Source: a bacterium (GTDB lineage: Bacteria > SZUA-79 > Acidulodesulfobacterales > Acidulodesulfobacteraceae). From it: a stretch of 64,000 nt of DNA. Where the stretch lies: contig JAJYPL010000001.1 in assembly GCA_021795355.1 (NCBI GenBank), forward strand, positions 62,001 through 126,000, read 5' to 3'. The stretch's first letter is position 1. Each line of letters begins with the position of its first letter. Positions 4,945 through 9,345 of the stretch are shown here, one piece after another. The notes below the pieces were generated by a model. It saw only the letters and a list, made by a program, of their open reading frames with translations, was not told where the DNA came from and did no database searches. The position numbers and the translations under genes were made by a program.

Positions 4945-4974
4945 TTGAATTTTTAGGGGGGGGGGGGGTATAAT
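4945..4974 (+). promoter_or_regulatory. Promoter with G13 tract in the spacer (candidate phase-variable)
   Basis: A run of 13 G (4956-4968) ends directly at a perfect TATAAT (4969-4974). Upstream, TTGAAT (4945-4950) is a 4/6 match to the -35 box at 18-nt spacing, so nearly the whole spacer is homopolymer. Gain or loss of one G would move spacing through 17-19 nt. It points toward the GGDEF-EAL gene starting at 5224, with a roughly 240-nt leader that contains a decayed GGDEF fragment. Phase variation is inference from architecture. Confidence 0.6.
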
Positions 4975-5114
4975 TAATAATATTAATATATTCTAAAAAT
5001 TCTAAAAATAATTTTATGTTATACTTATATTATTAATAATATCGTAAAAAATTAAATATAAGGTAGGATATCCCTTATTTTAGGTTCTCTTATTTATATT
5101 GTTCTCTTATTATA

Positions 5115-5171
5115 GTTGACGACGCCATGTATAAGACTAAACAGGACGGAAGGAACAGGGTCTGTATATAT
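5115..5171 (+). pseudogene. C-terminal fragment of a GGDEF-domain gene
   Basis: Reading from 5115 gives VDDAMYKTKQDGRNRVCIY, the standard last helix of a diguanylate cyclase domain. It is nearly identical at DNA level to the end of the intact gene finishing at 9345 (GGAAGGAACAGGGTCT is shared). No upstream part of the domain is present. It is a remnant left by deletion or recombination between tandem paralogues, sitting between the poly-G promoter and the intact GGDEF-EAL gene. Confidence 0.85.
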
Positions 5172-5223
5172 AGCAGTATAGAGAGTCATGTCAAGAAATA
5201 ATAAAGCAATAAAAGGAGACTTT

Positions 5224-7608
5224 ATGATATTAAAAAACAATAGAACGATATATATCATCGAGGGCTTATTTTTAATTGTTATTTTGCTGGTTGCCGGCAT
5301 TTTATTATATGCAGGACCTGTTTCCGTTAAAAAAAATTTTGTTTTTCATTCGGAACTTTTATTAAAAATAACGAAAATAAATAAAGATATAGACCTTGTT
5401 AAAAGCTGGGTAGCCAAATCCATATATTACGGCGCTTTAAAGCCTTCGCCGCACCAAAAAACACTTTTTAAGAAAGCTTTAAATAATTTAAAACTAAACT
5501 TAGCAAAAACAGATAAACAGTATAAAGAACTTGACGGATTTATCAAAAAAAACGGCGCATTTTTTAAACATAACCGCAAAATTATATTATATTTTAATAA
5601 ATCATATTTTCTGTGGAAAAATATCAGCAGTCCTATACTTAAAATAATTATAAAACATCCCAAATATATATCGTCCAGAATTTCATATAAGCTTTTTTTA
5701 AAAGATACTCTTTATCTTTCCCACCTATCCGCCTCAAACATCATTAAAAATACAAAATCAGACTTCGAACGGGTTATTAATACTGTGATTTATTTATTTG
5801 TAGCGGCTACGCTTATAATAATATCTATTTTAATTTTATTTTTTTATTATTTTAATAGATTTCAAAAAGCTTTATTAAAAGAGGAACAAAAATTCGAATC
5901 TATGTTTAAAGAACAGCAAAGCATAGGGCTTGTCATAGATGTCGAAAACGGCGATATTATAAATGCGAACGATGCAGCGGTAAGTTTTTACGGTTATTCT
6001 AGAGACGAATTATTAAAAATGAATATAAGCCGGATAAATGTTTTTACTCCCGTCGAAGAACAAAAAAAATTCAGGCGGATTGCGGCGGAAAAAAGGGGCA
6101 ATTACGCTATTTTTAAGCACAGGCTCAAAAACGGAGATATAAAGACGGTGGATGCCCGCATATCTAAATTTATATCGCGCGATAAACCGTATTTGCTGGG
6201 AATTATTAACGATATTACGCAGGAAAAGGCGCTGGAAGAAGAATTAAATATATCTCATTTTTACGACCCTTTAACCAAGCTTCCCAATAAGAATCTCTTT
6301 ATCATAAGCAGCAACCAGCATCTTAACAGCAGGATGTATAAAGAAGAAGGATTAATTGCTTCGTTAGTAATAATAGATTTTTACAAATTGTCCTACTTTA
6401 ACAATACTTACGGATACGATACCGGAGACAAACTTTTGCGGAGTTTTTCAAAAAGATTAAGCGAAGCCATGCGGGAAGGAGATATAATTGCAAGGACGGG
6501 AGAAGACGAGTTTGGAATATTATTCGTCGAACTGCAAAATAAAGAAGATATTCTGCAGATAATTAACAGAATAAAAGAAGAATTTAAAAATCCTCTGCAT
6601 GTAGAAGAACGGCCGGCATCCGAATCTGCAATAGAAAACCTCGGCGGCGGGGCGGCAGACGCAAAGAAAGCCGTGCCCGAGCCGTTCAACGTTTCTTTTA
6701 CCATGGGGATATCCATCTTTCCCGACGACGGGAAAAATGCGGAAGATTTATTGAAATCGGCGAGTATTGCGCTTTTGAGCGCAAAAGAGCAGGGAGAAGG
6801 AGAATACGAATTTTTTAAAGAGCCTATGAATGTTCAGGCGTCGGAATTTTTAGTTATGAAAAATAGTATGATAAACGCATTTAAAAATAAAGAGTTTTTA
6901 ATCTATTACCAGCCCTACTTCGACATAAAAACAGGCAAAATAAAAGGCATGGAGGCTCTGGCAAGATGGAACAATAAAGATGCCGGCATTATACCTCCCG
7001 TTAAGTTTATCCCCCTCATCGAAAAGATGGGGTTTATAAGGCAGTTCGAAGAGTTTTTAATAGACAATATATGCGGGAGATTAAAAGAGTGGAAAGAACG
7101 CGGATTTAACATCGTGCCCGTTTCCATGAATATATCGCCCGCCAGTTTTAAAAAGGAAGGGTTAATCGAAATGATTGTTTCGGCATTGGACAGATACGGA
7201 ATTGCGCCGTCATTGCTTACCATTGAAATAACGGAAGGACTGTTTATAAAAAATTTAGATTATGCCGTTAAAATATTAAATATTTTTAAAGAAAAGGGGA
7301 TTAAGATTTCATTGGACGATTTCGGCACTGGTTATTCTTCTTTGTCTTATATAAAGAATATACCCGCGGATTTTATCAAGATAGATATTTCTTTTGTAAG
7401 AGGAATGATGGAAAATTTCAAAGATTCCGCAATAGTGAATACCGTCGTGGTTCTGGCTTCAAATCTGGGAATGAAGACTATCAGCGAAGGGGTGGAAACA
7501 GAAGGACAGTTAAAGATATTGAAATCTTTCGGATGCGATATCGTTCAGGGGTATTTATTTTCAAAACCCGTTCCCGAAAATGAAATTTTAGAGTTTTTAA
7601 AAGCATAG
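5224..7608 (+). CDS. Membrane sensor with PAS, degenerate GGDEF and EAL domains
   Basis: Predicted c-di-GMP phosphodiesterase. From ATG 5224 (AGGAG 5 nt upstream; an in-frame ATG at 5188 has no such site) it is 794 residues. It has a TM helix near the N-terminus, a roughly 150-residue extracytoplasmic helical sensor with YFNKSYFLWKNI, a second TM (about 190-215), PAS (about 225-335), GGDEF (about 340-520) and EAL (about 540-790). The cyclase signature is GEDEF (second Gly replaced by Glu, about residue 426), probably catalytically dead, while the upstream RxxD inhibitory site (REGD) remains. The EAL domain keeps EALARW (about 577), DDFGTGYSSL and the IKID metal site, so it should hydrolyse c-di-GMP. 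Its sensor is homologous to that of the next gene. Confidence 0.88.
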   Translation: MILKNNRTIYIIEGLFLIVILLVAGILLYAGPVSVKKNFVFHSELLLKITKINKDIDLVKSWVAKSIYYGALKPSPHQKTLFKKALNNLKLNLAKTDKQYKELDGFIKKNGAFFKHNRKIILYFNKSYFLWKNISSPILKIIIKHPKYISSRISYKLFLKDTLYLSHLSASNIIKNTKSDFERVINTVIYLFVAATLIIISILILFFYYFNRFQKALLKEEQKFESMFKEQQSIGLVIDVENGDIINANDAAVSFYGYSRDELLKMNISRINVFTPVEEQKKFRRIAAEKRGNYAIFKHRLKNGDIKTVDARISKFISRDKPYLLGIINDITQEKALEEELNISHFYDPLTKLPNKNLFIISSNQHLNSRMYKEEGLIASLVIIDFYKLSYFNNTYGYDTGDKLLRSFSKRLSEAMREGDIIARTGEDEFGILFVELQNKEDILQIINRIKEEFKNPLHVEERPASESAIENLGGGAADAKKAVPEPFNVSFTMGISIFPDDGKNAEDLLKSASIALLSAKEQGEGEYEFFKEPMNVQASEFLVMKNSMINAFKNKEFLIYYQPYFDIKTGKIKGMEALARWNNKDAGIIPPVKFIPLIEKMGFIRQFEEFLIDNICGRLKEWKERGFNIVPVSMNISPASFKKEGLIEMIVSALDRYGIAPSLLTIEITEGLFIKNLDYAVKILNIFKEKGIKISLDDFGTGYSSLSYIKNIPADFIKIDISFVRGMMENFKDSAIVNTVVVLASNLGMKTISEGVETEGQLKILKSFGCDIVQGYLFSKPVPENEILEFLKA

Positions 7609-7691
7609 AGAATTAATAAAAATATTAAACGAATATTTTGTAAATTAAAAATAGTTTTCTAATTACCTTACCCAAGTTTGGATATTTTCGA

Positions 7692-7711
7692 GGGGGGGGG
7701 GGGGGTATAAT
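7692..7711 (+). promoter_or_regulatory. Promoter with G14 tract abutting TATAAT (candidate phase-variable)
   Basis: Fourteen G residues (7692-7705) are followed immediately by TATAAT (7706-7711) and then TTAA, the same arrangement as at 4956-4974. The best -35 candidate, TTGGAT (7678-7683), lies 22 nt from the -10; at 17 nt only a poor TATTTT is found. The current tract may therefore represent a weak or off configuration. The intact PAS-GGDEF gene begins at 7765, giving a leader of roughly 45 nt. Confidence 0.55.
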
Positions 7712-7764: not shown

Positions 7765-9345
7765 ATGCAAATAAAAAATAATAAAGATAACAAGGGCAGC
7801 TTAATAGCCCACAGGCTTATGAATCGGATAAAAAATAAAATCATTTACGTCCTCGGAACTGTATTTTTTGTTATAGCTTTAATATTTGCCGTTTCGATAT
7901 GGCGTTTCGGACTTATTCCCTTAAAAGATTATACCGTTGCAAATATAAAACTCCATTCAAAATTTATGGATATAGACGAAAATTTAGATTTGATTAGCAG
8001 AAAGATGTTTTTAATTGTATATTATGAAAAAGCTAAACCGTTAAATTACCGGAATAAATTAAGGCAGACTCTAAACAAAACAGAAATACTCGTAAAAAAA
8101 ATAGATTCAGGATATAAAAATACCGGCACATTTATTAAAAAAACAGCGCCGTATGCTAATTACGACCCCAAAATCGTAAAAATATTTGAAAAATCTTATT
8201 TCCAATGGAAAACTATAGACAGGCCTATATTTGAAATATTTATAAAAAATTCAGGATACATTTCTACAAGAACTATTTACGGATCTTTTTCATCGTACAA
8301 TCGGTCATTAAATTATTTGATTCTGCCGTTAAAAACGCTTGTCAAAAATTTGCCGTATTTTGAACATATTTTTAATATTTACTTTTTAACGTTTACTATT
8401 GGAACCGTTGTTATCGTTATCCTTGGGATTTTACTCGCGTATTATCTTGATAAATTCTTTAAAGCCGTAAGAGAGTCGGAGGAATTGTTCAGGACATTAG
8501 TGGATAATATGCCGGAGGGGCTTGATATGCATACTGAAAAATTTATATACGCTAATCCCGCATTGCAGGAAAAATTAGGCTATTCCGAAGAAGAATTAAA
8601 AAATATGTTTTTCTGGGATATATTAGCCGAAGAACATAAAGAAACCGCAAAAGATGCTATTAAAAAAGGTCTTGCCGATATTGATTACAAGCATTACGTC
8701 ACGTTTAAAGCATTTAAAAAAACCGGCGAAGAACTATGGATGTATATTTATGCCGGTTCGGCAATATATAAGGGGAAAAGAGTGCGTATCGCAACTTTTA
8801 CCGATATTACCGAATTAATAGGCTTAAGGAAAGAGCTTGAACAAGAAAAAGAATTATATAAAAATATTTCCGAGAAAGACGACCTTACCGGCATCTTTAA
8901 CAGAAGGAAGTTCGAAAGTTCGCTTAAAGATTTGATAAAATTGGCTTCCAGATATAAAAGGCCGCTTTCTTTAGTAATGTTCGACATAGACAGGTTTAAA
9001 GAGGTAAACGATAATTTCGGCCATCAGGCCGGCGATTCCGTTCTCCGCGAATTAACCGGACTCGTCGGAACAGCTCTGAGGGATACCGACATCTTTGCAA
9101 GATACGGAGGGGAGGAGTTTATGGTCATAATGCCGGAAACGGATATCAACGATGCGGAAAATATTGCCGAAAGAATAAGAAAGACGGTTGGAAACCATAT
9201 ATTTAAATATGCAGCTGTGGTAAATATAAGTATCGGAGTCAGCCGGTATGCGGACGGCGAAGATGCCGGCAAGTTTATAAAAAGGGTTGACGGCGCTCTG
9301 TATAAGGCTAAACAGGCCGGAAGGAACAGGGTCTATGTATCGTAG
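7765..9345 (+). CDS. Membrane-bound PAS-GGDEF diguanylate cyclase
   Basis: Makes c-di-GMP from two GTP at the inner membrane. The 526-residue protein has a TM helix (about 28-50), an extracytoplasmic helical domain (about 55-205) with FEKSYFQWKTI resembling the sensor of the preceding GGDEF-EAL gene, a second TM (about 208-230), PAS (about 235-355) and GGDEF (about 365-525). The catalytic signature RYGGEEF (about 448) and the inhibitory RxxD (RDTD, exactly five residues before it) are both intact, so the enzyme should be active and product-inhibited. It is driven by a poly-G promoter. Together the two genes look like an opposing synthase/hydrolase pair sensing a similar signal. Confidence 0.9.
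   Translation: MQIKNNKDNKGSLIAHRLMNRIKNKIIYVLGTVFFVIALIFAVSIWRFGLIPLKDYTVANIKLHSKFMDIDENLDLISRKMFLIVYYEKAKPLNYRNKLRQTLNKTEILVKKIDSGYKNTGTFIKKTAPYANYDPKIVKIFEKSYFQWKTIDRPIFEIFIKNSGYISTRTIYGSFSSYNRSLNYLILPLKTLVKNLPYFEHIFNIYFLTFTIGTVVIVILGILLAYYLDKFFKAVRESEELFRTLVDNMPEGLDMHTEKFIYANPALQEKLGYSEEELKNMFFWDILAEEHKETAKDAIKKGLADIDYKHYVTFKAFKKTGEELWMYIYAGSAIYKGKRVRIATFTDITELIGLRKELEQEKELYKNISEKDDLTGIFNRRKFESSLKDLIKLASRYKRPLSLVMFDIDRFKEVNDNFGHQAGDSVLRELTGLVGTALRDTDIFARYGGEEFMVIMPETDINDAENIAERIRKTVGNHIFKYAAVVNISIGVSRYADGEDAGKFIKRVDGALYKAKQAGRNRVYVS

Follow-up and report, generated by a model that had tools for sequence, protein, structure and literature searches.

Poly-G tracts at the promoters of two putative c-di-GMP enzyme genes as candidates for phase variation in a Candidatus Acidulodesulfobacterales genome

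Most known cases of phase variation by repeat slippage come from host-adapted bacteria, and most of them concern surface structures. In Neisseria meningitidis, 9G and 10G phase variants of a strain carrying 11G at porA show altered expression levels, the poly-G being located between the -35 and -10 boxes, as in the first of the two promoters reported here (PMC3639595). In that case, however, the target is a surface antigen and the host-adapted species possesses mismatch repair, whereas the tracts described in this work are associated mainly with c-di-GMP enzymes of an uncultured lineage from acid environments without detectable MutS or MutL. In Helicobacter canadensis, poly-G tracts occur in promoters, at 5' coding ends and at 3' ends where they switch the C-terminus, and all three placements were found in the present family; the targets in H. 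canadensis include a glycosyltransferase, a methyltransferase and putative surface or secreted proteins (PMC2823697), whereas the prominent targets here are signalling enzymes and an RpoS-like sigma factor. A likeness in function exists with pdcB and pdcC of Clostridioides difficile, phase-variable enzymes of c-di-GMP turnover that alter motility and surface behaviour (PMC9286219, PMC11868660), but these are phosphodiesterases controlled by site-specific promoter inversion and not by repeat slippage.

Phase variation of c-di-GMP enzymes has been described by DNA inversion in C. difficile and by epigenetic switching in E. coli (PMC11868660, PMC9286219), and these two mechanisms also underlie the links between phase variation and c-di-GMP covered by a 2025 review (PMC11868660). 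In the open-access literature searched, no diguanylate cyclase promoter was found to be reported as slippage-controlled, most subscription journals being outside that scope. The slippage mechanism is known; the targets and the lineage are unusual, the tracts recurring at genes for c-di-GMP enzymes and the bacteria being free-living inhabitants of acid mine drainage. The reading that best fits our findings, and that we consider likely, is that slippage-controlled promoters diversify c-di-GMP levels; the switching itself is inferred, as no reads, transcription starts or expression data were at hand.

The two G tracts of the window and their genes

The window, by which we mean the whole 64-kb stretch of DNA that was analysed, belongs to a genome (G000) of the Ca. 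Acidulodesulfobacterales lineage (NCBI phylum Ca. Acidulodesulfobacteriota), which is reported from the open water, sediment and biofilm of acid mine drainage (PMC6776010). A run scan revealed exactly two long G runs, a G13 and a G14, all remaining G or C runs being no longer than 6 nt (the next longest G run is a G6). The base composition is 36% GC and the chance of a G after a G, taken from run counts, is about 20%; from the run-length counts, about 5e-5 G runs of at least 13 nt are expected in the 64 kb, against the two seen. An earlier note, made by a model from the sequence alone, had claimed that both runs end at a TATAAT upstream of GGDEF-containing genes, that a TTGAAT lies 18 nt from the first -10 box and that no other long G runs were noticed in the window. 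The first two claims held; the third held for the window but does not extend to the genome, in which (1.31 Mb available, 66% complete) four more tracts of G≥9, namely G13, G12, G12 and G9, are located outside the window.

All features of the window given below lie on the forward strand. Promoter 1 is composed of the -35-like box TTGAAT (4945-4950), the G13 tract filling the spacer (4956-4968) and the -10 box TATAAT (4969-4974), 18 nt from TTGAAT. This architecture, TTGAAT-N5-G13-TATAAT, is shown directly and fulfils one porA-type criterion, a long homopolymer between the two boxes. A second criterion, a change in length with the boxes retained among related copies, is fulfilled by promoter 1 in four species and by the G003/G023 pair described below. 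The promoter 1 region could be aligned in G000, G002, G006 and G004, and its conservation is equally shown: the surroundings, the TTGAAT and the TATAATTA at the -10 box are kept in all four, while the tract reads G13, G7AG4, G11AG3AG4 and G9, respectively, i.e. lengths of 13, 12, 20 and 9, those of 12 and 20 being interrupted. Slippage should be slower in the interrupted tracts of G002 and G006, which counts against the switch reading. The same plan, with TTGAAT, is found in more distant family members as TTGAATTCGGC-G13-TATAAT (G019) and TTGAATTTC-G12-TATAAT (G024).

Gene 1 (5188-7608, with a likelier start at 5224 favoured by the ribosome-binding site and by ortholog starts) encodes a sensor protein with PAS, GGDEF and EAL domains (Pfam). 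Since its GGDEF motif is degenerate (GEDEF) while the EAL, DDFGTG, KID, NIS and EIT site motifs are intact, gene 1 most probably encodes a c-di-GMP phosphodiesterase. Gene 2 (7765-9345) encodes a sensor protein with PAS and GGDEF domains (Pfam) and is most probably a diguanylate cyclase, because it carries GGEEF with an RxxD inhibitory site (RDTD). Both activities are inferred from motifs, and on motifs the proposal of one cyclase and one phosphodiesterase in the earlier note held. No terminator-like site was found between genes 1 and 2; therefore, transcripts begun at promoter 1 may extend into gene 2, a possibility that rests on inference from sequence alone.

Promoter 1 probably did not originate with gene 1. 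In G004, G006, G019 and G024, the gene following its counterpart encodes a PAS-GGDEF protein of approximately 630-660 aa, and in G014 an intact GGDEF gene is located immediately 5' of the gene 1 ortholog. In G000 and G002, the tail of a PAS-GGDEF gene remains between promoter 1 and gene 1; in G000 this remnant of a deleted GGDEF gene 3' end (VDDAMYKTKQDGRNRVCIY, 5115-5171) matches the C-terminus of gene 2. The idea of a conserved tract belonging to gene 1 was discarded, as five of its orthologs (G014, G019, G021, G023 and G024) have no tract directly upstream, and inheritance of the promoter from the deleted gene is preferred. We infer that promoter 1 is likely to have served the GGDEF gene whose tail still precedes gene 1, a correction to the earlier note, and that in the simplest history, deletion of a cyclase gene handed its switchable promoter to a phosphodiesterase gene.

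Promoter 2 is less clear. The G14 tract (7692-7705) directly adjoins the -10 box TATAAT (7706-7711), and no -35 box was found at 15-19 nt from this TATAAT at G14, a further correction to the earlier reading; the closest -35-like hexamer, TTGGAT (7678-7683), is weak and lies 22 nt away, outside the usual range, a distance that would become 17 nt if the tract were G9. The ortholog of gene 2 in G002 keeps the TATAAT but has no tract, carrying instead TGGTATAAT, a good extended -10, and the G019 ortholog of gene 1, also without a tract, is similar. Poly-G may therefore derive from the GG of an extended -10, and such growth may have put spacing-dependent expression in place of TG-dependent expression; both steps are inferred. 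When a simple score for the -35 box plus the spacer was computed over tract lengths, promoter 1 reached its maximum at G12, a spacing of 17 nt, and scored slightly less at G13. Promoter 2 gave nothing useful at G13-G14 and was best, though weak, at G9-G10. If this scoring is valid, the assembled genotype would therefore correspond to phosphodiesterase up and cyclase down, a state predicted from the score alone.

Poly-G tracts and mismatch repair across the family

Relatives obtained by a whole-genome search form one family with the window genome (n=30, G000-G029), and a contig scan placed Candidatus Acididesulfobacter diazotrophicus AP1 and MAGs among the relatives of gene 1. Tracts of G≥9 occur in all 30 genomes, with 216 distinct tracts in the survey set and a longest run of G30. 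The sequence TTGAC was found 5-13 nt upstream of tracts 19 times against 2.5 expected, the expectation being taken from 14-60 nt upstream, with a positional P of about 3e-11 before allowing for homologous loci, and TATNAT was found 0-8 nt downstream 49 times against 16 expected. Homologous loci are counted more than once in both motif counts, and these statistics are consequently inflated. When each blind single-linkage cluster was reduced to one representative, the positional P rose to about 0.05 for TTGAC and to 0.16 for TTGAC/TTGAA. This clustering over-merged the set, placing 41 tracts, GGDEF paralogues included, in one cluster, as all GGDEF genes are related; for this reason we do not lean on the clustered values.

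A recurrent -35/poly-G/-10 promoter was shown, with both boxes at 22 pure tracts and also at interrupted ones, the spacing to the -10-like hexamer being mostly 14-20 nt. In an automatic test, 11 of these 22 pure tracts were followed by GGDEF genes, to which the interrupted loci of G002 and G006 are added, and the genes are of at least four types (sensor-PAS-GGDEF, PAS-GAF-GGDEF, triple-PAS-GGDEF and GGDEF-EAL). GGDEF domains number only about 453 in roughly 54 Mb, which corresponds to some 1% of genes if one gene per kb is assumed. The remaining promoter-type tracts mainly precede serine/glycine-rich lipoproteins and a conserved 175-aa protein with a signal peptide, whose promoter reads TTGACATTTCT-G10-TGCTTTAAT in each of the three species that yielded it (L143:3102-3626, L106:990-1310 and L205:3200-3724), a constancy that counts against the switch reading; this secreted protein matches no Pfam or NCBIfam family. 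A 315-aa membrane protein of G023, first suspected to be PelD, likewise has no Pfam or NCBIfam family.

Differences in length between near-identical loci were also shown. For seven pairs of tracts, taken from different contigs or genomes, the flanks are at least 99.5% identical, with 5 substitutions in a total of 3.6 kb and no indels outside the tract. The tract length is unequal in four pairs (10/14, 12/11, 10/11 and 10/11) and equal in three, the latter counting against the switch reading. One of the differing pairs is a GGDEF promoter, G10 in G003 and G11 in G023, with a single substitution in 572 bp. In G005, one GGDEF promoter occurs on two overlapping contig ends, once with G13 and once with G11, which may point to coexisting lengths in that population, an assembly error not being excluded. 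Evidence of this kind within a population is limited to duplicate contig ends in G005 and G001, with nothing alike for the window genome, and long G runs may be miscounted in short-read assemblies.

The mismatch-repair genes appear to be missing in this lineage. The MutS_I, MutS_V and MutL domains were found in none of the 20 family genomes searched, G000 included, 16 of which are at least 90% complete; RecA was detected in every one of them, and of 14 control genomes 11 gave matches to the MutS and MutL models. In N. meningitidis, mononucleotide switching becomes 100- to 1,000-fold more frequent once mismatch repair is lost (PMC3639595).

Proposed slippage switching and its rival explanations

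We propose that the G run, which takes up most of the promoter spacer, would gain or lose one or a few G by replication slippage, and that this change would shift the -35 and -10 boxes in or out of the 16-18 nt spacing preferred by RNA polymerase, so that transcription of the downstream c-di-GMP enzyme gene would vary between cells, heritably and reversibly. With neither MutS nor MutL detectable in the family, mononucleotide slippage would remain uncorrected and frequent. The phosphodiesterase promoter (G13, spacing 18) would be near its optimum of G12, and the cyclase promoter (G14) would be weak until shortened to about G8-G11. Spacing control is well supported for the promoter of gene 1; for that of gene 2, which has no -35 box in range at G14, it is weakly supported and plausible by analogy only, and the G002 ortholog has no tract. 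The phase variation by spacer slippage suggested in the earlier note is supported as the best explanation, since the boxes are conserved around a changing tract and the arrangement recurs at GGDEF genes in other genera, and since near-identical loci differ in length and MutS and MutL are absent from all 20 genomes tested. What remains inferred is that the tracts switch within a population, that transcription responds and that c-di-GMP and lifestyle change as a consequence. If true, a single mutable tract would shift a whole lifestyle programme, with the family-wide loss of mismatch repair as the enabling condition.

A referee may object that the tracts are mutational by-products, which drift and expand wherever they are tolerated, as in promoter spacers, and are variable without being selected switches. 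The absence of MutS and MutL is in line with this view, as are the several orthologs without a tract and the observation that, among 108 tracts of ≥10 G without a c-di-GMP gene, 50 lie more than 250 nt from any suitable gene. We nevertheless consider this explanation unlikely: GGDEF genes are strongly over-represented, being about 1% of genes but following half of the promoter-type tracts, the tracts are placed precisely between two promoter boxes, and they recur at the same place in several species, as seen for promoter 1 and for the 3' end of an HD-GYP gene.

Still less probable is that the G tract acts as a fixed regulatory element, such as a binding site or a promoter G-quadruplex, without any slippage switch. 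In its favour, the promoter of the 175-aa protein has G10 in three species, and the interrupted tracts of G002 and G006 retain a spacer that is G-rich but differs in composition. Against it, the length varies elsewhere, from 9 to 20 at promoter 1 and from 10 to 20 at the HD-GYP gene, near-identical copies differ in length, and some tracts lie within coding sequence, which rules out a promoter function common to all. A comparably low likelihood is given to the tracts, or their lengths, being artefacts of sequencing or assembly, for instance from two-colour poly-G read ends. Several tracts do lie at contig ends, where such artefacts accumulate (e.g. G000 C40, G005 C121 and G013 C106), but both tracts of the window are internal, with unique sequence on each side, and the -35/tract/-10 layout recurs in independent assemblies, a recurrence on which the artefact reading was dismissed.

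Tracts in coding regions and further loci

Long G or C tracts of the family are not restricted to promoters. The 5' coding part of some GGDEF genes contains or adjoins poly-C or poly-G (e.g. G014, G021 and G023), and the very 3' end of an HD-GYP gene carries poly-G of 10, 12, 13, 13, 15, 16 and 20 in seven genomes. The latter loci are L086 (G000 C6:10716-10728) and its orthologs L098, L152, L184, L095, L179 and L140; slippage there would exchange a short C-terminal tail of the phosphodiesterase. In genes encoding an RpoS-like sigma factor, a poly-C run of 9-20 lies close behind the start codon, some of these genes being in frame and others not (L207, L210, L049, L101, L209, L223 and L225, in G016, G027, G025, G012, G016, G028 and G023, respectively); with C12, the gene of G027 is open in frame for 310 aa, and that of G028, also with C12, hits a stop after 35 aa. 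This general sigma factor could be phase-variable, a suggestion that we make tentatively. Tracts were also found in a gene for a HindVP-type restriction enzyme, a YadA-like adhesin gene and a TonB-receptor-like gene, a set with the usual breadth of phase-variable genes in which signalling genes are unusually prominent.

A bolder reading, towards which we lean by a narrow margin, is that this lineage, having lost MutS and MutL, hedges its bets system-wide through poly-G slippage directed at its signalling core, with the promoters of several cyclases and phosphodiesterases, the 5' coding regions of cyclases, the C-terminus of the HD-GYP protein and the RpoS-like sigma factor gene as targets. If true, every cell lineage would carry its own mix of c-di-GMP settings.

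Some further loci are recorded here. Approximately 600 bp are identical or nearly so across genera at L158/L211 (G005 and G027) and at L142/L239 (G003 and G023), possibly reflecting a recent transfer or the mis-binning of contigs. In the window genome, a G12 (C20:48472-48483; L085:3473-3484), located between an OsmC-like gene and a short ORF preceding a tilS-like gene, is directly 5' of a promoter-like site, TTGAAA-N17-TAAAAT, and precedes the promoter spacer rather than filling it. In G001, an A9-G10/G11 run (L078 on C110 and L094 on C22) lies a few bases 5' of the ATG of a small gene, which is upstream of a CheA-like gene and the ortholog of gene 1; this one sequence is found on two contig ends, with G10 in one and G11 in the other.
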